In this document: positions 35,134 through 55,262 of the stretch, in pieces | How positions within the stretch are numbered: position 1 is the stretch's first letter | How the letters are laid out: every line of letters starts with the position of its first letter | Assembly: GCF_001427635.1 (NCBI RefSeq) | Contig: NZ_LMHA01000001.1 | Coordinates: 1,560,969-1,624,968 of the forward strand | Source of the DNA: Pseudoxanthomonas sp. Root65 | GTDB lineage: Bacteria > Pseudomonadota > Gammaproteobacteria > Xanthomonadales > Xanthomonadaceae | Reading direction: 5' to 3' | DNA: 64,000 bases | Translations under genes and position numbers: made by a program | Notes under the pieces: generated by a model | Seen by the model: the letters and a program-made list of their open reading frames with translations, nothing else | What the model was told of the DNA's origin: nothing | Database searches by the model: none

Positions 35134-36000
35134 ATGAAGCAACGCGCTGCGTGGATGCTGTGCTGGCTGGCGGTGATGCTGGCCTGGGCGCCGGCAGTAT
35201 CGGCACAGGGGCCGGGCGGCGTGCGCAAGCAGGTGGAAGCCAGCATGCGGGTGACCGGAGCGATCACCATCGCCACGGACGGCAGCGTCGAGGCGGTCGA
35301 TCTGGATACGCCGGAGAAACTGCCGAAGGGTATCGCCGCGTTCGTCGGCCAGAACATCGCGGGCTGGCGCTTCGAGCCCGTCGTGGTCGACGGCGTGCCG
35401 CATCGCGCGCTGACCCGGGTGAGTGCACTGCTGGTCGGCAAGACGATCGGTGGCGGTCAGATGTCCGTCTCCATCCGAGGCGCCGACTTCAGCGACGACA
35501 CGGTCCTGCCGGAAGCCGAGCGCATCGCGGCCCGCCAGATGAAGCCGCCGGGGTATCCGACCAGCGCCGCGGAGGAGGGCGTGCAGGGCACGGTGTACCT
35601 ACTGGTCAAGGTCGCGCGCGACGGCACCGTCGGCGACGTCTCCACCGAACAGGTCAACCTGCGCTTCGTGGCCAGCGAGCCGCAGATGAACCGTCACCGC
35701 GACCGCCTGGCCCGTGCCGCGATGGCTGCGGCGCGCGGTTGGACGTTCGCGCCGCCGACCGCGGGCGAGCAGGCATCGCAGCCGCACTGGATCGTCCGCG
35801 TGCCGGTCGATTTCAACTTCACCGGCCTGCTGCCCTACGGCGAGTGGCAGGTCTATGTGCCCGGCCCGCGGACGCGACCCGACTGGGCGCCCGACGAAGA
35901 CGCCCCCGGCTTCTCGCCCGATGCGCTGGCCGAGGGCGGCATCCGTCTGGCGGGTGGCCATCGTGGCCCGAAGTTGCTGACGCCGCTGGATGGGGCGTGA
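35134..36000 (+). CDS. TonB C-terminal-like periplasmic protein, paralogue 1
   Basis: 288 residues. Signal peptide about 1-25. There is no transmembrane anchor and no Pro/Lys-rich spanning arm, so it is not a classical TonB. Two TonB_C-like halves can be seen. Residues 30-105 contain IATDGSVEAVDL and GWRFEPVVVDGVPH. Residues 135-235 contain MKPPGYPTSAAEEGVQGTV, VARDGTVGDV, ARGWTFAPPTAGE and VRVPVDFNF. The tail ends KLLTPLDGA. The ATG follows a strong GAGGAGG. It is followed 58 bases later by a clear paralogue. A periplasmic partner of receptors or a divergent member of the energy transducer TonB family is possible; no function is shown. Confidence 0.78.
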   Translation: MKQRAAWMLCWLAVMLAWAPAVSAQGPGGVRKQVEASMRVTGAITIATDGSVEAVDLDTPEKLPKGIAAFVGQNIAGWRFEPVVVDGVPHRALTRVSALLVGKTIGGGQMSVSIRGADFSDDTVLPEAERIAARQMKPPGYPTSAAEEGVQGTVYLLVKVARDGTVGDVSTEQVNLRFVASEPQMNRHRDRLARAAMAAARGWTFAPPTAGEQASQPHWIVRVPVDFNFTGLLPYGEWQVYVPGPRTRPDWAPDEDAPGFSPDALAEGGIRLAGGHRGPKLLTPLDGA

Positions 36001-36058
36001 CCTACGTAGTGGGTTGTGTGAAGAACGGAATGTCCGAAAAGACGAAAGGAGAAAAACG

Positions 36059-36907
36059 ATGATGCGCACGTGGATGGCAATGGGATTGATGGTGTTCTCG
36101 GCGTTGGCGCAGGCGCAGGGCGCCGGCGCGGTCCGCAAGCAGCTTGAAGCCAGCCTGCTGGTGCACGGCGAGATCACGGTGGACGAACGAGGCGAGATCG
36201 CCGATTACACGCTCAAGGACCCGGACAAGCTGCCCGCAGGCGTCGAAACGTTCGTGCGCCGTAACCTGGACGGCTGGACGTTCGAGCCGCCCAAGGTGGA
36301 TGGCAAGCCGGTCAGCCTGCGGAACAACATGAGTCTGCTGCTGGTGGCGAAGAAGCTGGACGACGACAACTTCCTCATGCGGATACAGGCGACAAGCTTC
36401 TACCCTCAGTCCACGGAAGAGGGCTACGAGGTCGCCAGTCGGAAGATGGATCCACCGCGCTACCCGCGAGCGGCGGCGCAAGGCGGCGCGCAGGGGACCG
36501 TGTACCTGATCGTCAAGGTCGGGCGCGACGGGAATGTGCAGGACGTAGTGGCCGAGCAAGTGAACCTGCGCGTCGTCACCACCGAAAACATGATGGTCAA
36601 ACTCCGCGAGATGTTCGCACAGGCATCGATTGCCGCCGCCAGGAAGTGGCAGTTCGCGCCCCCCACGCGCGGTGACGACGTGGACGCGGAATTCTGGTCG
36701 GTGCGCGTTCCGGTGGACTTCAACATGGGAACGCAGCGGCCAAGCTATGGCCGCTGGATCGGCTACATCCCCGGCCCCAAGGAAAAGGCTGGCTGGGTGG
36801 ATCCGGACCTCGCCGAGACATCGCCCGAGGCGATGGCGGCAGGCCAGCCACGCCAACTTGGCAAGGATGGTTTGCGTTTGCTGACGCCCCTCGACAGCGG
36901 CTCGTAA
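36059..36907 (+). CDS. TonB C-terminal-like periplasmic protein, paralogue 2
   Basis: 282 residues with signal peptide about 1-20 (LAQAQG). It is the tandem paralogue of the preceding gene and has the same two-half layout. The first half (about 25-95) has DERGEIADYTL and DGWTFEPPKVDGKPVSL. The second (about 125-225) has MDPPRYPRAAAQGGAQGTVY, VGRDGNVQDVVAEQVNLR and ARKWQFAPPTRG. It ends LLTPLDSGS, again like its neighbour. AAGGAG lies seven bases before the ATG. The codon choice is slightly less GC-rich than in paralogue 1. A bidirectional terminator follows, so the pair forms its own transcription unit. Confidence 0.78.
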   Translation: MMRTWMAMGLMVFSALAQAQGAGAVRKQLEASLLVHGEITVDERGEIADYTLKDPDKLPAGVETFVRRNLDGWTFEPPKVDGKPVSLRNNMSLLLVAKKLDDDNFLMRIQATSFYPQSTEEGYEVASRKMDPPRYPRAAAQGGAQGTVYLIVKVGRDGNVQDVVAEQVNLRVVTTENMMVKLREMFAQASIAAARKWQFAPPTRGDDVDAEFWSVRVPVDFNMGTQRPSYGRWIGYIPGPKEKAGWVDPDLAETSPEAMAAGQPRQLGKDGLRLLTPLDSGS

Positions 36908-46325: not shown

Positions 46326-46489
46326 GCCGCCGGGATCATGAAGCAACGTCGTCCCAGCGCAAGCTGGGACCCATGTTGATTCTGCGGTTCTGCGTCAGTG
46401 GCTGGACTTCGGCGACGTTTCGACGAACGCTTGAGGCCGCCGTGCAACAGCAAAAGCACAATGGATCCCAGCGTGCGCTGGGATGACGG
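46326..46489. repeat. 165 bp repeat with palindromic ends, copy 1
   Basis: Shares near-identical ends with copy 2 at 46578-46742. Near the left end is an imperfect 20-base palindrome (46351-46370, GTCCCAGCG core). At the right end is a perfect one (46465-46484, ATCCCAGCG core), followed by GATGACGG. Between them both copies hold ACCCATGTTGATTCTGCGG, and later AACAGCAAAAGC. The middle diverges. The structure resembles a non-coding mobile element of the MITE or REP-array kind. Confidence 0.85.
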
Positions 46490-46577
46490 CGTCGGGGTGT
46501 CCGGTACGCTGCAGGATTGGTGATTGCGTTATGCAGGGACGCTGGGTCCCGGCTTGACCAGCCTTCGGCGGTTGAAT

Positions 46578-46742
46578 GCCGCCGGGATGGTGAAGCAACG
46601 TCGTCCCAGCGCACGCTGGGACCCATGTTGATTCTGCGGTTCTGCGCCAGAGGCCGGCTTTCGACGAAATCTCGACAGAACGCTCGAGGCGCCGTGAAAC
46701 AGCAAAAGCGCAATGGATCCCAGCGTGCGCTGGGATGACGGG
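46578..46742. repeat. 165 bp repeat with palindromic ends, copy 2
   Basis: Direct repeat of 46326-46489. The palindromes are at 46603-46622 (GTCCCAGCG core) and 46717-46736 (ATCCCAGCG core). The left boundary begins GCCGCCGGGAT in both copies. The central ~50 bases differ from copy 1 by substitutions and small indels. Confidence 0.85.
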
Positions 46743-46789
46743 GTGAAGTTCAACGGTGGCTGCGTTGTCAGGGATTTCCCTCTGCAAAG

Positions 46790-46838: not shown

Positions 46839-49800
46839 TTACAGCGCTTCGCCACCCAGCTTCCAGGTGACCTGCACGAAATAGCTGCGGCCCATGGAGT
46901 CGAACCAGGAGGTGTCGTAGTACGGATAGTTCGCCCACGTGGCATCGCGCGGCGGCATCTTGTCCAGCAGGTTGTTGATGCTCAGCGACAGGCGCAGGTG
47001 GTCGTTGATGTCGAAGCGCGCACCGCCGTTGAAACGCCAGGTGGACCCGGTCCAGGCATCGTTGTTGTAGTTCGCCACCTGACCCAGGTAGTTGCCGAAG
47101 AAGCTCAGGCCGACCTTGTCGCGATCCCAGCTGATCGCCAGGTTGCCCTTGTTGCGCGGCAGGGTGGTGGCGCTGAAGCTCAGGTCCAGCATGTCCTCTT
47201 CGGGGTCGCCCGGGTACTGCTGGCGGGTGTGGGTGTCGGTCCAGGTGTAGCTGCCGGTGAAGCGGAAGTCGCCCGCGTTGGCGGTGGTCAGGCGGTAGTT
47301 GGCGGTCAGGTCGATGCCGGTGGTTTCTTCGTTGGCGATGTTGATCGGTGCGAAGCGCACGCTGGTGATGTCGCCATCCGTATCGCGGATGACGCGCGCC
47401 AGCGCATCCACGCAGGTCGGCGAGGCGATGTCGACCGGCGCGCCGCTTTCGGTGGTGCCGAGGCGGCAGTTCGCCTCGTCGATGCGCAGCTGTTCGCGGC
47501 TCTGGGTCTGCACCTGGTTGGATACGCGGATCTTGTAGTAATCCACGGCCAGGTCGAAGTTGGCGAACGGCGACCAGACGAAACCGGCCGAGAACGACTT
47601 GCTCGTCTCCACATCCAGGTCGATGTTGCCGGTGTAGACGTCGAACGTGTTGATGTCCCAGGTGCCGTCGTCGTAGCAGTCGGCATCGCTGAAGCCGGGC
47701 TCGTCGGTCCGGCACTGGTAGTAGTCGGTCGACAGGGTGCGGTAGTAGTCGTCGCCGGCGAACAGGTAGTGCATGTCCGGGGCGCGGAAGCCGGTGCCGT
47801 AGGAGCCGCGTACCAGCAGGGTGTCGAGCGGGCGCCATTCCAGGCCGGCGCTGTAGGTGAACTTGCCGGGGTTCTTGTTGCCGTACTCGTAGCGATCGTA
47901 GCGACCGGCCAGGCTGGCCTGCAGCGAAGACAGCAGCGGCAGTCGGAACTCGCCGGCCACGCTCCAGCGGTCGCGGTCGCCGCTGCCGTCGCCGTAGCGC
48001 GGGCCGTAATAGGCATCGGCGGTCAGCGCGAGCGGATCGGGGTTGATCTCGTACGACTGCTGGCCGTACTCGATGGCGCCTGCGAAGCCCACGTCGCCGG
48101 CCGGCATCGAGAACAGGGCGGGCGTGTCGACGGTGAAGCTGAGGGTGTCGTTGTCGGCCTTGGGCCGGAAGGTCGACATCGCGGCGATGGAGGCGAACTC
48201 AGCCTGCGTCAGCGGCGTGAACAGGCGCGTCGGGTCCGGGCTGAAGATCGCGTAGCCATCGGCGTCGTAGCCCTGCTGTTCGCCCAGGAACAGGCGGTTG
48301 GCCGCCGCCGCACGAATGCGGGGCATGCCAACGTCGGCGTTGTACTGCGAGTGGTTGTAGGCCGCTTCCCAGTTCCAGCTGTCGCCGAAGGCGCCCTGCA
48401 GGCCGGTCGTGACGGCGAACGTCTTCTGGGTGGTGACGTTCATGCGGTTGCGCAGGCCGCCGATCTCTTCTGGCGTGAACTGCCGCGACCAGATCTCGTA
48501 GTGGCCGGTGACGGCGTTGTAGAAGATCTTGTCGTTGTTGTCGGTCGAGGTGGGGTCGTGGAACTCCCAGCCCATGATGTCGCTGACCACGTCGTTGCCG
48601 TTGGTGCCGGTCAGCAGCCGTACTTCCTGGCGGCCGAGCTGGACATCGGCGAACCACGACAGGCTGTCCGAGAAGCGGTACTCGAACGAGCCGTACGCGG
48701 TGAAGCCCTTGCGCTCGTTCTGGATGGTGCGATACGCGATGGCGCGCTCGCTGCCGCAGTACGGCTCGCCGAAGCGGTCTTCGGCCAGCACGGTGGTGCC
48801 GTCGTTGAGGCCGGCCATGGCCGCGCAGTTGTCGGCCGGCGCGATGTTGATCTCGTCGTCCCAGTCGTAACGCTGGGCAGTGAGCCGCGGCAGTTGCCGG
48901 CGCGGTGTCGGCGCATCGAGGGTGGAATCCTGGTTCTCGCGCTCGAAGCCCCACAGCGGGCGCTTGTCCAGCAGTTCCAGGCCGACGATGCCGCTGAAGT
49001 CGTCGCGCTCGAAGCCGGCGGTCAGCGTCAGCCGATGCGACTCGCCGCCACCGCGCTCGGTGTCGCCGTAGCGGTAGTCGATGATGGTGCCGTCGGTCGA
49101 CTTCTTCAGGATGAAGTTGATGACGCCGGCCATGGCATCCGAACCGTAGACGGCCGAGGCGCTGCCGGTCAGCACTTCGATGCGGTCGATCATGCCGAGC
49201 GGGATGTTGCCGATGTCGGTGAAGTTGCTGCGGCCATTGAGCGGCAGCGGAAAGTCCGCGGTGCGTCGCCCGTTGATCAGGACCAGGGTGTGGTTGGGGC
49301 CGAGGCCACGCAGGTCGACCGCCTGCGCGCCGGGCGTCGACTGGGCGCTGGTGGTGTTCTGCTGCCCCTGCACGCTGCCGCTGTTCTGGCTGAGCGAGCG
49401 CAGCACGTCGGGCACGGAGGTGAAGCCGGCCGCCTGGATCTGTTCGGCCGTCACCACCGTGATCGGCGCCGGTCCCTCGATCTGCGCGCGGGGAATGCGC
49501 GAACCGGTGACCTGCAGGGTCTCGAGCTGGGTCACGGGTTCTTCGGCTTGCGCGGCGCCGCCACCGGGAGGCGCCTCCTGGGGCGCGGGCCGCGGCGCCG
49601 GTGCACGCCGCGGGCTGGCGTCGGCCTGCACGATCAGCACGGCACCGGAGGCATCGCGCCTGGCCTGGAAACCGCTGCCCTGCAGCAGCCGGTCCAAGGC
49701 CTGGTCGGTGGTGGTGGCGCCCTGCACGCCGGAGGTGCGGCGACCCTTCAACTGGTCGGCGCGATACACCAGCTGCGTGCCGGACTGCTTGGCCAGCGTG

Positions 49801-49922
49801 TTGAGCGCCGTGGTCAGTTCGCCCGCAGGCAGGTCGATGCGGCCGGGGGCCGCCTGGGCCTGCGCGGCGAGCGCCGCACTACAGGCCATGCTCAACAGCA
49901 GGACGCGCACTGGATACCGCAT
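46839..49922 (-). CDS. TonB-dependent receptor with STN signalling domain
   Basis: 1027 residues. Signal peptide about 1-24. Residues 27-100 form the secretin/TonB short N-terminal (STN) domain used by FecA-type transducers to talk to an anti-sigma factor. After a Pro-rich linker comes LETLQVTGSRIPRAQ (a TonB-box-like segment near 140) and the plug, with VDLRGLGPNHTLVLINGRRT and IEVLTGSASAVYGSDAMAGVIN. The rest is a 22-strand barrel ending VQVTWKLGGEAL. The substrate is unknown. The TonB receptor style (many aromatic girdle strands, VTGSRIPR motif) is that of Xanthomonas receptors, which often take up plant sugars or peptides. Last gene of the sigma-FecR-receptor operon. Confidence 0.93.
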   Translation of the reverse strand: MRYPVRVLLLSMACSAALAAQAQAAPGRIDLPAGELTTALNTLAKQSGTQLVYRADQLKGRRTSGVQGATTTDQALDRLLQGSGFQARRDASGAVLIVQADASPRRAPAPRPAPQEAPPGGGAAQAEEPVTQLETLQVTGSRIPRAQIEGPAPITVVTAEQIQAAGFTSVPDVLRSLSQNSGSVQGQQNTTSAQSTPGAQAVDLRGLGPNHTLVLINGRRTADFPLPLNGRSNFTDIGNIPLGMIDRIEVLTGSASAVYGSDAMAGVINFILKKSTDGTIIDYRYGDTERGGGESHRLTLTAGFERDDFSGIVGLELLDKRPLWGFERENQDSTLDAPTPRRQLPRLTAQRYDWDDEINIAPADNCAAMAGLNDGTTVLAEDRFGEPYCGSERAIAYRTIQNERKGFTAYGSFEYRFSDSLSWFADVQLGRQEVRLLTGTNGNDVVSDIMGWEFHDPTSTDNNDKIFYNAVTGHYEIWSRQFTPEEIGGLRNRMNVTTQKTFAVTTGLQGAFGDSWNWEAAYNHSQYNADVGMPRIRAAAANRLFLGEQQGYDADGYAIFSPDPTRLFTPLTQAEFASIAAMSTFRPKADNDTLSFTVDTPALFSMPAGDVGFAGAIEYGQQSYEINPDPLALTADAYYGPRYGDGSGDRDRWSVAGEFRLPLLSSLQASLAGRYDRYEYGNKNPGKFTYSAGLEWRPLDTLLVRGSYGTGFRAPDMHYLFAGDDYYRTLSTDYYQCRTDEPGFSDADCYDDGTWDINTFDVYTGNIDLDVETSKSFSAGFVWSPFANFDLAVDYYKIRVSNQVQTQSREQLRIDEANCRLGTTESGAPVDIASPTCVDALARVIRDTDGDITSVRFAPINIANEETTGIDLTANYRLTTANAGDFRFTGSYTWTDTHTRQQYPGDPEEDMLDLSFSATTLPRNKGNLAISWDRDKVGLSFFGNYLGQVANYNNDAWTGSTWRFNGGARFDINDHLRLSLSINNLLDKMPPRDATWANYPYYDTSWFDSMGRSYFVQVTWKLGGEAL

Positions 49923-50021
49923 CGACTCTCTCCCCGGGGGCGCTCGGAATGGCGCCTGTTGGCTATCAGGACGAACGAACCACGCAAATCCCCCCGTGAC
50001 CTTCGTCGTGGCGTGCGTGAC

Positions 50022-51080
50022 CTAGCGCGAGTACAGGACGATGCGGTCCGCACGCCGTTCGGCGCGGACCGGGAATCCCTGTTCCAGCAGGTGCGCGAAA
50101 CCTTCGGCATTGGACCAGCGGAAGTTGCCGCCCACGCGCAGGTCGGCGACGGCGTCGTCGCCCAGCTCCAGCTTGCGGGTGTTGAAGCGGTTGAACTCGG
50201 CGGCGGCCTCGGCCAGCGAGGTGTCGTCGAAGGTCAGGAAGCCGTCGCGCCATTCCAGGTAGCGCTCCGCCTCGGCCACCGGCAGCGAGCGAACGAGCAC
50301 GCCGTTGCGGCCGGCGGTGGCCACGCTGCCGGCCGGCAGCAGTGATACCGGCTGCGCGGGACCCTCGCGGCCTGCGCGGCTTTCCAGACGCACCTTGCCT
50401 TCGGTCACCACCACCCGCACGGCGTCCGGATCGCGGCGCACCGAGAAGCGCGTGCCCACCGCCTGCACGCGCCGGCCTTCGGTTTCCACCACGAACGGCC
50501 GCCGCGCGTCGTGCGCGACATCGAAGAAGGCTTCGCCCTGGGCCAGCGCCACGTGCCGTGCGCCACGGCTGATGCGGACATCCAGGCGGCTGTCGCTGCT
50601 CAGGGTGGCGATGGAGCCGTCGGGCAGCGTCACCGTCTGGATCTGGCCCACCGTGCTCGCGTAAACCGCCTGTTCGCGGCCGCTCAGTTGCCAGCCGCCC
50701 CAGGCGATCGAGCCGAGCGCCAGCAGCGCGAGCGTCGCCGCCACGCCCTGAGGCCAGCGCCGGTGGCGGTGGCTGCCGCGCTCGCGCGGCGCGAAGGTGA
50801 TGTCGCGCAGGTCCGGCCGGGCGTCGGTGGGCATGTCGTCCGCCTCGGCCATCGGCGTGCTGCGCGGCGGCAGCGCGCCGGCCGGCACGCCTGCGCCGAG
50901 CGCCTGCAGTCGGCCGGCTTCGGCCCAGGCGGACTGCAGGCGCAGGAAGGCGACCTTGTGCCGTGCGGATTCGGCCAACCAGGCATCGAGCGCCTGCTGC
51001 TCCTGCGCCGTCCAGTCGTCCGCGTCGCGGCGGGCCAGCCAGTCGGCGGCCCGTGCCTCAATCTGTCTGCTGTCGGTCAT
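50022..51080 (-). CDS. FecR-type anti-sigma/transmembrane sensor
   Basis: 352 residues. The N-terminal cytoplasmic FecR_N (DUF4880-like) region is IEARAADWLARRDADDWTAQEQQALDAWL. One transmembrane helix follows near 118-138 (GVAATLALLALGSIAWGGW). The periplasmic FecR domain has TVGQIQTVTLPDGSIATL..SRL and GEAFFDVAHDARRPFVVET. A C-terminal STN-like fold reads FNRFNTRKLELGDDAVADLRVGG. It passes the receptor signal to the ECF sigma factor. The start at 51080 overlaps the sigma gene by 23 bases, typical of coupled translation. Confidence 0.92.
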   Translation of the reverse strand: MTDSRQIEARAADWLARRDADDWTAQEQQALDAWLAESARHKVAFLRLQSAWAEAGRLQALGAGVPAGALPPRSTPMAEADDMPTDARPDLRDITFAPRERGSHRHRRWPQGVAATLALLALGSIAWGGWQLSGREQAVYASTVGQIQTVTLPDGSIATLSSDSRLDVRISRGARHVALAQGEAFFDVAHDARRPFVVETEGRRVQAVGTRFSVRRDPDAVRVVVTEGKVRLESRAGREGPAQPVSLLPAGSVATAGRNGVLVRSLPVAEAERYLEWRDGFLTFDDTSLAEAAAEFNRFNTRKLELGDDAVADLRVGGNFRWSNAEGFAHLLEQGFPVRAERRADRIVLYSR

Positions 51081-51651
51081 GCGCCTCGTCCTCGTCCATG
51101 ACGGGCCGGGCACGTCGCCCGTCCAGCGCAGGCACGGCGTCGCCGCCGTACAGATGGTCGGCGATCAGGCGCATCCCTTTGGCCAAATGCTTTTCCACGG
51201 TCTTCTCGCTGATGCCCAGTTGGCGGGCGACGTCCTTCTGCGGCAGTTCCTCCACGCGCCGCAGCCACACCACTTCGCGGCAACGGTCGGGGAGCCGGTC
51301 CAGGGCCTCGACCACGCGCTTGAGCGCCTGGCGGGTCCCGGTCCACCGCTCGGGCGACACCTCGTCGATCAGGTAGACGTTCGAGGACTCGAAATCACCC
51401 ACTGGCTCGATCGACACCACCCGGCTGCGGCGCAGGCGGTCGGTCATCAGGTGGCGCGCGGTGGCGAACAGGAAAGCCTTCGGCGTGTCCGGACGGTTGC
51501 GCGCCGCGGCTTCGTAGACGCGCGCGTAGACCTCCTGGCGCAGGTCGTGCCACTCGTCGCGGTGCGGCCACGCGCGCTGCAGGAACAGCGCCAGCGCGCG
51601 TTCGTGGATGAGGACTTCGCGGACGAACCAGTCGTCGAGTTCGGTGGGCAT
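51058..51651 (-). CDS. ECF sigma factor, FecI-like
   Basis: 197 residues. The sigma-70 region 2 is RDEWHDLRQEVYARVYEAA with AFLFATARHLMTDRLRR. Region 4 is LPDRCREVVWLRRVEELPQKDVARQLGISEKTVEKHLAKG, a helix-turn-helix. It directs RNA polymerase to the receptor operon when the FecR/receptor pair is activated. The start at 51651 is chosen from the family N-terminus (MPTELDDWFVREVL); a longer open frame extends into the divergent gap. First gene of the operon; divergent from the cyanophycinase fusion gene. Confidence 0.93.
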   Translation of the reverse strand: MPTELDDWFVREVLIHERALALFLQRAWPHRDEWHDLRQEVYARVYEAAARNRPDTPKAFLFATARHLMTDRLRRSRVVSIEPVGDFESSNVYLIDEVSPERWTGTRQALKRVVEALDRLPDRCREVVWLRRVEELPQKDVARQLGISEKTVEKHLAKGMRLIADHLYGGDAVPALDGRRARPVMDEDEAHDRQQTD

Positions 51652-51770
51652 GGCCGCACTGTATCCCAAGCAGCGGGCCGATCCGCATGGGGGAAGACGG
51701 GCGTCGCTTCGTCTCCACAAGGCATCGGTGCGTGGCATCCTGCCGCGACCTTCGACCCTGGGAGTACGGC

Positions 51771-53711
51771 ATGGTGTCTGTCTTCGGCCTGTTGCGGCGC
51801 GGCGCGGTCTGCGTGGTGGCGCTCGCGTTGTCCTTGCCGGCACTCGCCGCCCAGCCTGCGCATTACGTGCTCGGCGATGTCAGCGCGAAGACGCCGGGAC
51901 AGGTGCAGCCCGGCCTGCTGCTGATGGGCGGCGGCGACCGCAATTTCGATGCGCTGCGATGGTTCATGCAGAAGGCGGGCAACGGCCACATCGTGGTGCT
52001 GCGCGCGTCGCAGGCCGGCGAGATCGGCGAGGAATTCTTCAACGAGGTCGGCGGCATCGCCTCGGTCGAGACCTGGGTGTTCAGCGACCGCGAAAGCGCC
52101 AGCGATCCCGACGTGCTGCGCAGCCTGAAGCGTGCCGACGGCATCTTCCTGGCCGGCGGCGACCAGTCGCGCTACGTGCGCTACTGGCGTGGCACGCCGG
52201 TCGGTGCCGCGCTGGACGCGCATGTGCGCGCCGGCAAGCCGCTGGGCGGCACCAGCGCCGGCCTGGCGATGCAGGGCGAATACCTGTACGGCGCGATGGA
52301 TGGCGGCAGCCAGATCAGCCCACGCGCACTGGCCGATCCGCTCGGTCCGGACAACACCATAGAAACGGACTTCCTGCAACTGGCGCTGCTGAAGGGCGTG
52401 ATCACCGATACGCACTTCAGCGAACGCAATCGTCTGGGCCGCCTGATCGCCTTCGTCGCCAAGGCCGAATCGATCGCGCAGCGCCCGCTGATCGGCCTGG
52501 GCGTGGATGAAGACGCCGCTGTCGCCGTGGAAGGCGATGGCCGCGCGCGTGTCTACGCGACCGCGCCTGGCGCCGGTGCGACGGTGGTGAAAGGCGGCTT
52601 CGCGCAGAAACAGGTCGAAGACGAAGCGATGAAGCTCGATCGCGTCGACACCGTCATCGCCGGTGTCGATTCCGTGCTGCATCTGCCCAGCGGCCGCGTC
52701 GACAAGCCTGCCGCCGAACGCCGCTACGCCGTGCGCGATGGCGTGCTGGTCGCATTGGATGCGCCGGTGCTGGTGATCCATGGCGGCGCCGGCGTCGAGC
52801 GCGCCGGCATGACGCCCGCCGACGAAGACGCGGCCCGCAAGGCGCTGGAAGCGGCGCTGCGCGCCGGCCATGCGCAGCTCACCGCCGGCAAGCCGGCGCT
52901 GGAGGCGATCACCGCGGCCATTACCGTGCTGGAGGATGCGCCGCCGTTCAACGCCGGCCGCGGCGCGGTGTTCACCCACGACGGCAAGAACGAACTCGAT
53001 TCGTCGATCATGGATGGCGCCACCGGCAAGGCGGGTGCCGTGGCCGGCGTGCACCGGGTCAAGAACCCGATCACGCTGGCGCGCGCGGTGATGGAGAAAT
53101 CGCGCCACGTGATGATGGTCGGCGGCGGCGCCGAAGCCTTCGCCAAGGAGCAGGGCGTGACGCTGGTCGATCCGTCGTACTTCCGCACCGAGAAGCGCTG
53201 GCAGCAGCTGCAGAAAGCGCTGCAGGAAGAAGCGCAGGCTCAGGCGAGCAACATGCCGCTGGAACTGCCGGGCAAAGCCTACTTCGGCACCGTCGGCGCT
53301 CTGGCCCTGGACGCGACGGGCCACCTGGCGGCGGGCACGTCGACTGGCGGCATGACCAACAAGCGCTACGGCCGCGTCGGCGATGCGCCCATCATCGGTG
53401 CGGGCACGTGGGCCGACGACCGCTGCGCGGTGTCCGGCACCGGCTGGGGCGAGTACTACATCCGCGCCGCCGCCGCGCACGAGGTCTGCGCGCGCGTGCG
53501 CCTGGCCGGGCACAGCATCGCGCGCGCGTCGGACGCCGTGATCAACCGCGACATCCCCAAGGCGGGCGGCGACGGCGGTGCCATCGCCCTCGGCGCCGAC
53601 GGCAGCATGGCGTTCCCGTTCAACACCGAAGGCATGTACCGCGGCTGGATCGGCACCGAAGGGGTGCCGCACGTGGCCATCTACAAGGACGACCCGCTGC
53701 CTGCGCGCTGA
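51771..53711 (+). CDS. Secreted cyanophycinase / isoaspartyl peptidase fusion
   Basis: 646 residues with signal peptide about 1-27 (LAAQ). Residues 30-340 match the S51 cyanophycinase fold: LLMGGGDRNFDALRW, FLAGGDQSRYVRYW, and the nucleophile elbow GGTSAGLAMQGE with Ser162. Residues 345-646 are a type 2 asparaginase/isoaspartyl peptidase: VLVIHGGAGVER, FNAGRGAVFT, the autocleavage site FGTVGALALD with Thr507 as nucleophile, then AGTSTGGMTNKRYGRVGDAP and GTGWGEYYIR. Together they would cut cyanophycin to beta-Asp-Arg and then to Asp and Arg, or clean up iso-Asp peptides. GGGAG precedes the ATG. It is divergent from the ECF sigma operon. The two halves are normally separate proteins. Confidence 0.9.
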   Translation: MVSVFGLLRRGAVCVVALALSLPALAAQPAHYVLGDVSAKTPGQVQPGLLLMGGGDRNFDALRWFMQKAGNGHIVVLRASQAGEIGEEFFNEVGGIASVETWVFSDRESASDPDVLRSLKRADGIFLAGGDQSRYVRYWRGTPVGAALDAHVRAGKPLGGTSAGLAMQGEYLYGAMDGGSQISPRALADPLGPDNTIETDFLQLALLKGVITDTHFSERNRLGRLIAFVAKAESIAQRPLIGLGVDEDAAVAVEGDGRARVYATAPGAGATVVKGGFAQKQVEDEAMKLDRVDTVIAGVDSVLHLPSGRVDKPAAERRYAVRDGVLVALDAPVLVIHGGAGVERAGMTPADEDAARKALEAALRAGHAQLTAGKPALEAITAAITVLEDAPPFNAGRGAVFTHDGKNELDSSIMDGATGKAGAVAGVHRVKNPITLARAVMEKSRHVMMVGGGAEAFAKEQGVTLVDPSYFRTEKRWQQLQKALQEEAQAQASNMPLELPGKAYFGTVGALALDATGHLAAGTSTGGMTNKRYGRVGDAPIIGAGTWADDRCAVSGTGWGEYYIRAAAAHEVCARVRLAGHSIARASDAVINRDIPKAGGDGGAIALGADGSMAFPFNTEGMYRGWIGTEGVPHVAIYKDDPLPAR

Positions 53712-53755: not shown

Positions 53756-54502
53756 ATGCGCAGGATGCTGGGCGTTGCACTGTTGCTGGTGGCTGTAGGC
53801 GCGTCGTCGGCGGAACCGGAGAAGAAGCCGATACATTTCCGCGCCCATGCACGCGTTGCGCTGGACGCGCAGGGTGTGCCGCAGCAGGTCGAGGTCGATC
53901 AGAGGCTGCCCGCCGTCATTCGCGGCGCGGTCGCCGAGCGGGTGATGGCATGGCGGTTCGAGCCGGCACGGATCGACAATCAGGCGCATGCCGGTGCGAC
54001 GACCGTATTTGTCGATGCCTGCGCCGTGCCCTCCGACGGCGGCAACATGCGGCTGGCAGTGGAATACGACTGGAACGGACCCGGCTATGCCGATGGACGC
54101 TATTTCCATCCTGCACCTCGCTACCCGATCGATGCTGCCAAGCAAGGAAAAGTAGGCTCGTTCCGCGTCGTACTGAAGGTCGGTGCGGACGGACGCGCCA
54201 GCGTAGACACCATCGAAGTCCAGCGTGGCCAATTGCGCTTGTTTGAGGAAGCGCTGCGTAGTTGGGTCGCCCAGTTGCGCTATGTACCCGAAGAGGTCGA
54301 TGGCAAACCCGTTGCAACGCGCGTCGCCATTCCCGTGGACTTCTCGATGGGAGGGCCGCTAAGCACTCGCCAACAGGTACGCCAGGAGCGCGAGGACAAG
54401 CGAAACTCTTCCGAATGCATCGCAGCCATGGGCGGAGGCAAGGAAGAAGCCCCTCAGCCCGTCGTGCTCGATTCACCCTTCAAGCCGATCACGACAGGCT
54501 GA
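53756..54502 (+). CDS. TonB C-terminal-like periplasmic protein, paralogue 3
   Basis: 248 residues. Signal peptide about 1-19 (ASSAEP). The two-half TonB_C-like plan is VALDAQGVPQQVEVD and VMAWRFEPARIDNQ at 30-85, and APRYPIDAAKQGKVGSFRV, VGADGRASVDTIEV, WVAQLRYVPEEVDGKPVATRV at 120-205. The tail ends VVLDSPFKPITTG. A strong GGGGAGG is upstream. It resembles paralogue 4 most closely and shares the plan of paralogues 1 and 2. No membrane anchor besides the signal peptide. Two cysteines (DACAVP and SECIAA) are conserved with paralogue 4. Confidence 0.75.
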   Translation: MRRMLGVALLLVAVGASSAEPEKKPIHFRAHARVALDAQGVPQQVEVDQRLPAVIRGAVAERVMAWRFEPARIDNQAHAGATTVFVDACAVPSDGGNMRLAVEYDWNGPGYADGRYFHPAPRYPIDAAKQGKVGSFRVVLKVGADGRASVDTIEVQRGQLRLFEEALRSWVAQLRYVPEEVDGKPVATRVAIPVDFSMGGPLSTRQQVRQEREDKRNSSECIAAMGGGKEEAPQPVVLDSPFKPITTG

Positions 54503-54533: not shown

Positions 54534-55262
54534 ATGAAGCCATGGTGTGCGCTGGGCGTGTTGCTGGTGGCCGGATCGGCCTTTGCGGAAGGCAAGGACG
54601 ATCCCGTGCTGTTTCCCGCCACCGCCAGGATCGTATTGGACGCCGAAGGCGTCCCCCGGCAGGTGCAGGCCAATCCGAAGCTGCCCGTGCCGGTGCGCGA
54701 GGCGATCGAGCGGCGCGTGGCGCAATGGCGCTTCGAGCCGGCGCACGTCGACGGGGTGGCCAAGCCGGGTATCACCCACGTCAGGCTGCAGGCCTGCGCG
54801 ATTCCCAAGCCCGATGGCAGTCTGCACATCGGCATGGACTACCAGGGCAATGGCCCGGGCTATGCCAACGACGCCTTGCGACTGCCGCGGCTGCCTTATC
54901 CGCCCACCGCGATGCGGTCGGGGGCGCAGGCCAACATCAACCTCGACGTGCGGGTGGGCGAGGATGGGCTGGTCACGCTGCAGTCGATGAACGCCACGCG
55001 CGGCTCCGTGAAGGACTTCAAGGCCATCCTGGAAGCCTGGGTCGCGGTGATGCGTTATGTGCCCGAAGAGGTGGATGGGCGACCCATCGCCACCCAGGTG
55101 CGGATCCCGGTCAGTTTCTACTTCAGCGAGCGCTCCCAGCGACGGGAGTTGCAGGCCTCGGCGGCCCGCACGCCCGAATGCGTCGCCGCCGCCGGTCAGC
55201 CGAGCGAGCCGGCGCATCCGGTCGTGCTGGATTCCCCCTTCAAGCCCCTGCAGACGGGCTGA
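54534..55262 (+). CDS. TonB C-terminal-like periplasmic protein, paralogue 4
   Basis: 242 residues with signal peptide about 1-16 (GSAFAEG). Tandem copy of the previous gene: IVLDAEGVPRQVQA, VAQWRFEPAHVDGVA, LQACAIP, LPYPPTAMRSGAQANINLDV, GEDGLVTLQSM, VMRYVPEEVDGRPIATQV, then CVAAAGQPSEP and the tail VVLDSPFKPLQTG. GGAG lies before the ATG, 31 bases after paralogue 3, so the two are one transcript. Role unknown; see paralogue 1. Confidence 0.75.
   Translation: MKPWCALGVLLVAGSAFAEGKDDPVLFPATARIVLDAEGVPRQVQANPKLPVPVREAIERRVAQWRFEPAHVDGVAKPGITHVRLQACAIPKPDGSLHIGMDYQGNGPGYANDALRLPRLPYPPTAMRSGAQANINLDVRVGEDGLVTLQSMNATRGSVKDFKAILEAWVAVMRYVPEEVDGRPIATQVRIPVSFYFSERSQRRELQASAARTPECVAAAGQPSEPAHPVVLDSPFKPLQTG

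Follow-up and report, generated by a model that had tools for sequence, protein, structure and literature searches.

A fused cyanophycinase-like and isoaspartyl peptidase gene of Pseudoxanthomonas and its probable cyanophycin sensing and import locus

The window analysed here is a stretch of 64,000 nucleotides of Pseudoxanthomonas sp. Root65 (contig NZ_LMHA01000001.1, positions 1,560,969 to 1,624,968), numbered from its first letter. Within it, an open reading frame (ORF) running from an ATG at 51771 to a TGA stop at 53709-53711 encodes a protein of 646 residues, which joins a cyanophycinase-like half of peptidase family S51 to an isoaspartyl peptidase (IaaA) half. The original prediction, made from the DNA letters, had proposed one polypeptide with these two halves, and a Pfam domain search bore this out: Peptidase_S51 (PF03575) scored 41.3 bits against a gathering score of 23.9 (residues 113-257) and Asparaginase_2 (PF01112) 365 bits against 27 (residues 332-638). 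Since both domains were present in all 120 relatives listed, the best 120 of 3196 with E ≤0.001 (8000 candidates scored), the ORF is neither an artefact nor a chance ORF. The gene has the following features.

51771..53711, plus strand: fused S51 (cyanophycinase-like) and isoaspartyl peptidase gene, 646 residues, predicted exported
51771..51851, plus strand: Sec-type signal peptide, residues 1-27, read by eye, cleavage site between LPALAA and Q, no lipobox
51900..52706, plus strand: S51 half, residues 44-312, with Q132, S162, D213, T214, H215, R219, R221, R224 and E247
52764..53684, plus strand: threonine-type isoaspartyl peptidase half, residues 332-638 (Asparaginase_2)
53289..53291, plus strand: codon of Thr507, the predicted autocleavage nucleophile (between FG and T), aligned with the first residue of the 1jn9 beta chain and invariant in 40/40 fused proteins

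An in-frame upstream ATG at 51687 would give an alternative protein of 674 residues, but we preferred 51771 as the start because the upstream ATG overlaps a conserved promoter-like motif (51689-51713, see below). The N-terminus, MVSVFGLLRRGAVCVVALALSLPALAAQ, was taken as a Sec signal peptide both by our own reading and by a home-made heuristic, which was also positive for 39/39 fused relatives outside the Bacteroidota; this heuristic is lax, accepting any ATG, GTG or TTG start and the best window, and had two negative controls only (L002 and L003). The single signal peptide claimed beforehand was thus recovered, with no second one before the IaaA half, and mature IaaA likewise lacks a second signal peptide in the fused proteins. 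Taken together, 51771-53711 is a real and conserved gene, and its product is predicted to be an exported enzyme with two successive activities.

The catalytic residues are intact in both halves, including the two that had been singled out from the sequence, Ser162 in its GGTSAGL elbow and Thr507. To the S51 half we mapped the catalytic and pocket residues named for CphB and CphE in PMC3235067. The Ser-His-Glu triad of cyanophycinases is present (S162, H215, E247), as is their pocket of one Gln, one Asp and three Arg (Q132, D213, R219, R221, R224). In an alignment of 66 S51 rows, 65-66 retained each mapped residue, except at position 214 (T 42, S 12, Q 11, gap 1) and position 247 (E 62, Q 3, gap 1). 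Two sequences enter these rows twice, the window gene (WIN, L001) and the CphB of this genome (L003, L082); the sole row failing at the other positions, L061, comes from a truncated slice, and its full ORF is intact. Among 40 fused proteins, Q132, S162, D213, H215, R219, R221 and R224 were invariant, and Glu247 and Thr214 were each kept in at least 90%. The Ser-to-Asp spacing of 51 and Thr214 reproduce the published CphE pattern (171, 222); in the CphB of this genome, as in published CphB (132, 172), the residue is Gln and the spacing 40. Exported enzymes are not strictly marked by Thr at 214: Ser takes its place in several tandem relatives, and Gln in the Bacteroidota rows. The best PDB sequence matches of the N half were the cyanophycinases 3en0, 7uqv and 7uqw (58.9-61.4 bits), and in a structure comparison its fold was nearest to solved cyanophycinases, much nearer than to PepE.

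As for the C half, its best PDB sequence match was the E. coli IaaA precursor 2zak (278 bits), and Thr507 aligns to the first beta-chain residue of E. coli IaaA 1jn9. Residues G506, T507, T525, R535, D538 and T557 were invariant in the 40 fused proteins and correspond to the Gly-Thr autocleavage site of EcAIII and to its T197, R207, D210 and T230. The likeness to IaaA/EcAIII, autocleavage Thr included, amounts to 43% identity in the structure alignment. EcAIII is a cytosolic, stand-alone enzyme, whereas the IaaA half of the window follows the S51 C-terminus and has no signal peptide of its own. The AlphaFold model of the fusion is poor at 173-179, nearly throughout 395-506 and at 526-543, and therefore our reading of the IaaA half rests on sequence. 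The fusion is expected to be nicked before Thr507, which would leave two final chains, S51-alpha and beta. The domain pair fits the two consecutive steps of cyanophycin breakdown to which it had been assigned.

A cassette of three genes lies divergently to the fusion and makes up a complete set of FecI/FecR/FecA type, that is, an extracytoplasmic function (ECF) sigma factor, a FecR regulator and an STN-bearing receptor. The earlier account read the fusion soundly but missed the cassette that goes with it.

51058..51651, minus strand: FecI-like ECF sigma factor (Sigma70_r2 and r4_2), divergent from the fusion, in 50/53 loci
50022..51113, minus strand: FecR-type regulator (FecR and DUF4880), in 49/53 loci; its start may be a later ATG at ~51080
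46839..49922, minus strand: TonB-dependent receptor of transducer type with STN signalling domain (plug, barrel and STN), in 52/53 loci
51689..51713, plus strand: promoter-like motif GGGGGA-N13-TTCGTC before the fusion, one of 2 in the window, conserved in part of the relatives
49970..49994, minus strand: second window copy of GGGGGA-N13-TTCGTC, before the TonB receptor

We compared the neighbours of 78 loci, drawn from the best 80 of 305 confirmed stretches and not at random. In 53 of them S51 was next to IaaA; these are Lysobacterales, save L019, whose name goes no further than Proteobacteria. Another 19 had only IaaA, and 6 came from Bacteroidota. Where S51 stood beside IaaA, we found the receptor in 52/53 loci, FecR in 49/53, the ECF factor in 50/53 and all three in 49/53, L044 being a locus that ends early on the cassette side. 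None of the three was found in the 19 IaaA-alone loci, a set in which 15/19 are named Xanthomonas and two loci (L058 and L071) cover <4 kb upstream. STN was present in 50 of 53 receptors (those of 52 loci and the window), and the receptors without it (L037, L076, L080) belong to exactly the loci without FecR and ECF. The window's receptor scored below the cut-off of all 25 families listed, iron receptors included, and its nearest paralogue in its own genome reached 484 of 2372 bits.

The motif GGGGGA-N13-TTCGTC was derived by aligning both upstream regions of the window and 11 close loci. The window holds 2 copies, against 0 in 100 shuffles, and the whole genome 3. The third copy was rejected as a regulon member and is read as chance because it lies antisense within an ORF that we named an RND efflux pump from its translation. 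Over the 53 loci, 43/45 strict matches fell within the two upstream regions, which make up 36,734 of 1,743,840 strand-bases. Strict matches occurred on 22/53 enzyme sides and 21/52 receptor sides, with both sides in 12 loci; outside the 11 discovery loci the counts were 15/42 and 11/41. Allowing a spacing of 12-14 gave 30 enzyme sides, 26 receptor sides and 19 loci with both (56 matches inside the regions, 3 outside). The motif was absent from 19/19 IaaA-only loci. Among 99 genomes sampled from the family, 31 bear the locus, and 17 of these (12 fused, 5 tandem) had the motif there. The motif may be the target of the neighbouring ECF factor.

The genome's other cyanophycin genes bear on how the fusion is used. 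A full CphA lies ~86 kb from it (C1:1700747-1703383, 1109 bits against a cut-off of 850). The idea that the organism is a scavenger, drawn from the lack of a synthetase in the window, is therefore not supported, as that lack holds for the window only. A CphB on one side of CphA is over the TIGR02069 cut-off (254.6 bits), and an IadA-type isoaspartyl dipeptidase lies on the same side (TIGR01975, 392.9 against 331.25); on the other side is a second CphA-like match (1698841-1699977, 327 bits, below the cut-off), within an ORF of 619 residues whose only domains are those of a Mur ligase. In the slice G000:C1:1694000-1710000 (L096, 4749-11440), iadA, cphB, cphA and this Mur-ligase ORF stand on one strand. 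A separate IaaA is found at C1:2235144-2236073. The organism should, on the strength of these genes, make and recycle its own cyanophycin. Because CphB, IadA and the separate IaaA lack a signal peptide by our own reading, the genome presumably holds a second, cytosolic pathway to which the exported fusion runs parallel.

The fusion is no rarity, a point on which the original prediction was silent: in the 99-genome sample (own genome included), 20 had it in one match and 11 had adjacent separate S51 and IaaA genes, besides the at least 120 two-domain relatives. By reading the DNA, G063, G071, G098 and G037 were confirmed as two ORFs each, which disposed of an in-frame fusion in the first three, where both genes share a frame. 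CphA was over the cut-off (E 1e-150) in 24/99 genomes, that is, in 11/20 fused, 4/11 tandem and 9/68 others. As 9/20 fusion-bearing genomes have no CphA at this threshold, those carriers likely use foreign polymer. Of 249 genomes sampled from the window's phylum, 6 gave a match at 1e-110; all 6 belong to the same order, and 2 matched over both halves. Within this phylum the gene is mainly a Lysobacterales trait, Novosphingobium excepted. Two Novosphingobium loci (L097, L098), where a divergent TonB receptor adjoins the fusion, lie on plasmids of 1.8 Mb, one of them classed as conjugative, which suggests horizontal spread; their receptor match begins after the STN region, and no FecR or ECF match was found there. 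On Deinococcus ficus plasmid pDFI2 (L099), annotated cphA, isoaspartyl peptidase and cyanophycinase genes stand in a row, a separate-gene, synthetase-linked layout.

Where IaaA is separate beside S51, it has its own signal peptide by the lax heuristic in 14/14 proteobacterial and 3/3 Pedobacter loci, which suggests that export of the second step arose independently of fusion. The separate proteobacterial S51 has one in all but L061 of the 14, again a truncated slice. In the fused proteobacterial rows IaaA begins directly after the S51 C-terminal strand, 170-176 residues past the elbow (192 in L037), and in the three fused Bacteroidota rows 182-184 residues past it. A tree of 80 IaaA domains, with a midpoint root and weak deep branches, needs 8 changes of the label "fused", at least 4 of them forced by well-supported branches; it indicates that fusion or fission occurred repeatedly. 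Lone IaaA proteins without S51 or cassette, exported judging from signal peptides seen by eye in Xanthomonas, are nested among fused and tandem forms (L053-L059, L062, L063, L066-L069, L072 and L074 from Xanthomonas, and L071). This Xanthomonas-type lone IaaA looks like loss of the first step.

In Bacteroidota, the order in Pseudoflavitalea (L070) is sigma, FecR, SusC, SusD and fused enzyme, and L064 and L073 are also fused. The Pedobacter locus L065 comprises sigma, FecR, a receptor resembling SusC, SusD, S51, IaaA, another S51 that passes TIGR02069 (156.3), and a dicarboxylate symporter. The S51-IaaA-S51 tandem, with two different cyanophycinase-like enzymes, recurs in L065, L078 and L081, Pedobacter genomes that also carry CphA; at E 1e-100, CphA was found in 3/3 Pedobacter and 0/3 Chitinophagaceae genomes examined.

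Downstream of the fusion are two further genes, a pair found directly behind it in some Pseudoxanthomonas relatives only.

53756..54502, plus strand: TonB_C-domain protein, lineage-specific, role uncertain, with matches in 7/78 loci
54534..55262, plus strand: second TonB_C-domain protein, role uncertain

A third TonB_C-domain protein lies at 35990-36907, and all three read as carrying a signal peptide. A mechanical ORF (46395-46787), which separates the receptor from an acyltransferase gene, contains "VIPAHAGIH" twice, like dispersed repeat elements.

We consider it likely that a cyanophycin utilisation locus lies here, with the fusion as its enzyme, receptor-based sensing and import, induction by the ECF factor and a predicted two-step digestion. 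The fusion, its residues, the conserved cassette, the motif and the pathway genes lacking signal peptides were read from the DNA; substrate, compartment, sensing and autocleavage we infer as follows. At the cell surface, the STN-bearing TonB receptor would bind and import cyanophycin, whole or as oligomers. FecR would pass the signal of binding to the ECF sigma factor, which would then induce, by way of the shared motif, the receptor gene as well as the divergently oriented enzyme gene. The enzyme would be exported by Sec, most likely into the periplasm and not into the medium: one would expect a TonB receptor to be conserved chiefly where the ligand cannot pass through porins on account of its size, as would be the case with oligomers of cyanophycin. 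There, the S51 half (Ser162-His215-Glu247) would trim the aspartate backbone to beta-Asp-Arg, self-cleavage before Thr507 would activate the IaaA half, and the latter would split the dipeptide into Asp and Arg, to be taken up by ordinary carriers. With the two steps joined, Asp and Arg would be released instead of the dipeptide.

Several observations weigh against this scheme. The N half does not reach the cyanophycinase equivalog TIGR02069 (102.6 against 126.6 bits), which is why we describe it as CphE-like in its working and not as a member of that family. The check named beforehand as damaging to the prediction therefore came out mixed: no catalytic residue is lost, but the N half misses this equivalog. 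One of the three nearest structure entries is titled pseudo-CphB, and a fold match alone does not fix the substrate. Three related Rhodanobacter fused enzymes (L035, L038, L039) have Gln for the catalytic Glu at 247, their remaining residues being intact; in the two of them read out, the site reads GLGVDQ. The C half likewise falls short of the beta-aspartyl-peptidase equivalog NF007589 (PRK10226), with 305.4 against 567 bits, and since one IadA and one IaaA from published clusters were promiscuous (PMC10206079), iso-Asp peptides of any kind may be substrates of the second step. The genes tested next to the window's locus included no recognisable amino-acid carrier. The exact motif is absent from 31/53 enzyme sides and 31/52 receptor sides, and of its 72 matches in 46 of the 99 genomes, 27 are at the locus and 45 elsewhere, more than the 17 in total of a reversed control pattern. 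The association with CphA, present in 15/31 locus-bearing genomes against 9/68 others (Fisher p 0.0003), takes no account of phylogeny. Finally, two Dyadobacter have 81 and 96 SusC/SusD pairs, usually with FecR and sigma genes (PMC11573002); as such sets are very common in some Bacteroidota, the sigma-FecR-SusC-SusD context is weak evidence by itself.

Three alternatives were weighed, which overlap in part, so that their likelihoods need not sum to one. The one that survives best, though we hold it unlikely, is that the locus serves to scavenge isoaspartyl or beta-linked peptides of another kind (lasso peptides or other natural products, or fragments of aged protein), the S51 half being a general Asp-X peptidase and cyanophycin not its main substrate. 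ECF/FecR/TonB cassettes also accompany lasso peptide isopeptidase genes. A lasso locus was not favoured, however: a PF13471 search of the own genome gave one match of 21.4 bits against a cut-off of 26, leaving no lasso B protein over it. S51 does include PepE, in a different clade from CphB, and the microcin C-resistance peptidase MccG (PMC9239234), and two enzymes from published clusters, one IadA and one IaaA, proved promiscuous for beta-aspartyl dipeptides (PMC10206079). Against this stand the near-complete retention of the arginine pocket over the S51 rows (duplicates counted), a fold much closer to cyanophycinase than to PepE, and the second S51 of Pedobacter L065, which passes TIGR02069.

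Slightly less probable still is an enzyme fully secreted, like Pseudomonas CphE, that digests insoluble polymer outside the cell, while the receptor imports an unrelated ligand, for example a siderophore. FecI/FecR/TonB systems are classically for iron, which counts for this alternative, and the known CphE enzymes are extracellular (PMC3235067). Yet the receptor stands beside the enzyme in nearly all of the 53 loci and in both Novosphingobium loci, has a SusC/SusD counterpart in two Bacteroidota loci, shares its upstream motif with the enzyme gene in the window, and scores under the cut-off of every family listed. It is very improbable that the S51 half is degenerate, a mere binding or dimerising module for an exported asparaginase or isoaspartyl peptidase: the low TIGR02069 score, the Rhodanobacter Gln and the exported IaaA that Xanthomonas relatives retain alone would fit, but Ser162, His215, Asp213, Gln132 and the three Arg, invariant in the 40 fused proteins, and Glu247, nearly so, are unlike a decayed domain.

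Cyanophycin utilisation thus remains our preferred reading, and the locus combines known parts in what appears to be a new arrangement. The S51 half resembles CphE of Pseudomonas anguilliseptica BI and P. alcaligenes DIP1 (compared by residue numbers from PMC3235067) in its signal peptide, its triad, the pocket of Gln, Asp and Arg, the Thr that precedes the catalytic His, and the spacing of 51. CphE, however, is a lone S51 enzyme, whereas the fusion has an isoaspartyl peptidase and a putative sensing and import locus; CphB (3en0, 7uqw) differs in being intracellular, with Gln173 and a 40-residue spacing. A Thalassotalea cyanophycinase is also named in PMC7564069. The cyanophycin utilisation locus was described with IadA and extended to IaaA (PMC10206079, citing Ben Hania et al.), the cyanophycinase and isoaspartyl dipeptidase genes lying together, often with transporters. 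All three parts by which such a locus is recognised were found here, the IaaA-type fusion supplying both enzymes and the TonB receptor the transporter, with cyanophycin as its presumed cargo. The clusters of PMC10206079 are of separate genes, unlike the window's, and the available text mentions no fusion, TonB receptor or ECF/FecR regulation; the words "fusion", "fused", "periplasm", "secreted" and "signal peptide" are absent from its main text. In Citromicrobium, a TonB-dependent receptor next to a cyanophycinase gene was likewise proposed as a cyanophycin importer (PMC3400609), but this was one gene neighbourhood, and in the text available neither fusion nor promoter is mentioned and "FecR" and "isoaspartyl" do not occur. 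The cassette itself resembles FecI-FecR-FecA cell-surface signalling, from which it differs in being paired with a polymer-degrading enzyme whose gene the shared motif also precedes. In open-licence papers our literature search turned up neither the fusion nor ECF/FecR control of cyanophycin use, nor any account of Gram-negative sensing combined with extracytoplasmic completion of cyanophycin digestion.

When cells lyse, the nitrogen they have stored as cyanophycin can pass to others. The locus, a probable sensing and import locus for this polymer, predicts receptor, regulator, promoter and enzyme in one place. We lean, with somewhat less assurance than for the window's own locus, towards seeing in it a widespread and undescribed class of substrate-sensing cyanophycin loci, in which FecA-type signalling would detect a storage polymer and co-induce receptor and exported two-step enzyme, in Proteobacteria and, with SusC/SusD and in the manner of polysaccharide utilisation loci, in Bacteroidota, with recurrent fusion or fission of the enzyme. 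Because many carriers also make cyanophycin, cells may recycle in this way the polymer of lysed kin. A fused enzyme converting the polymer straight to Asp and Arg could also serve amino-acid production.
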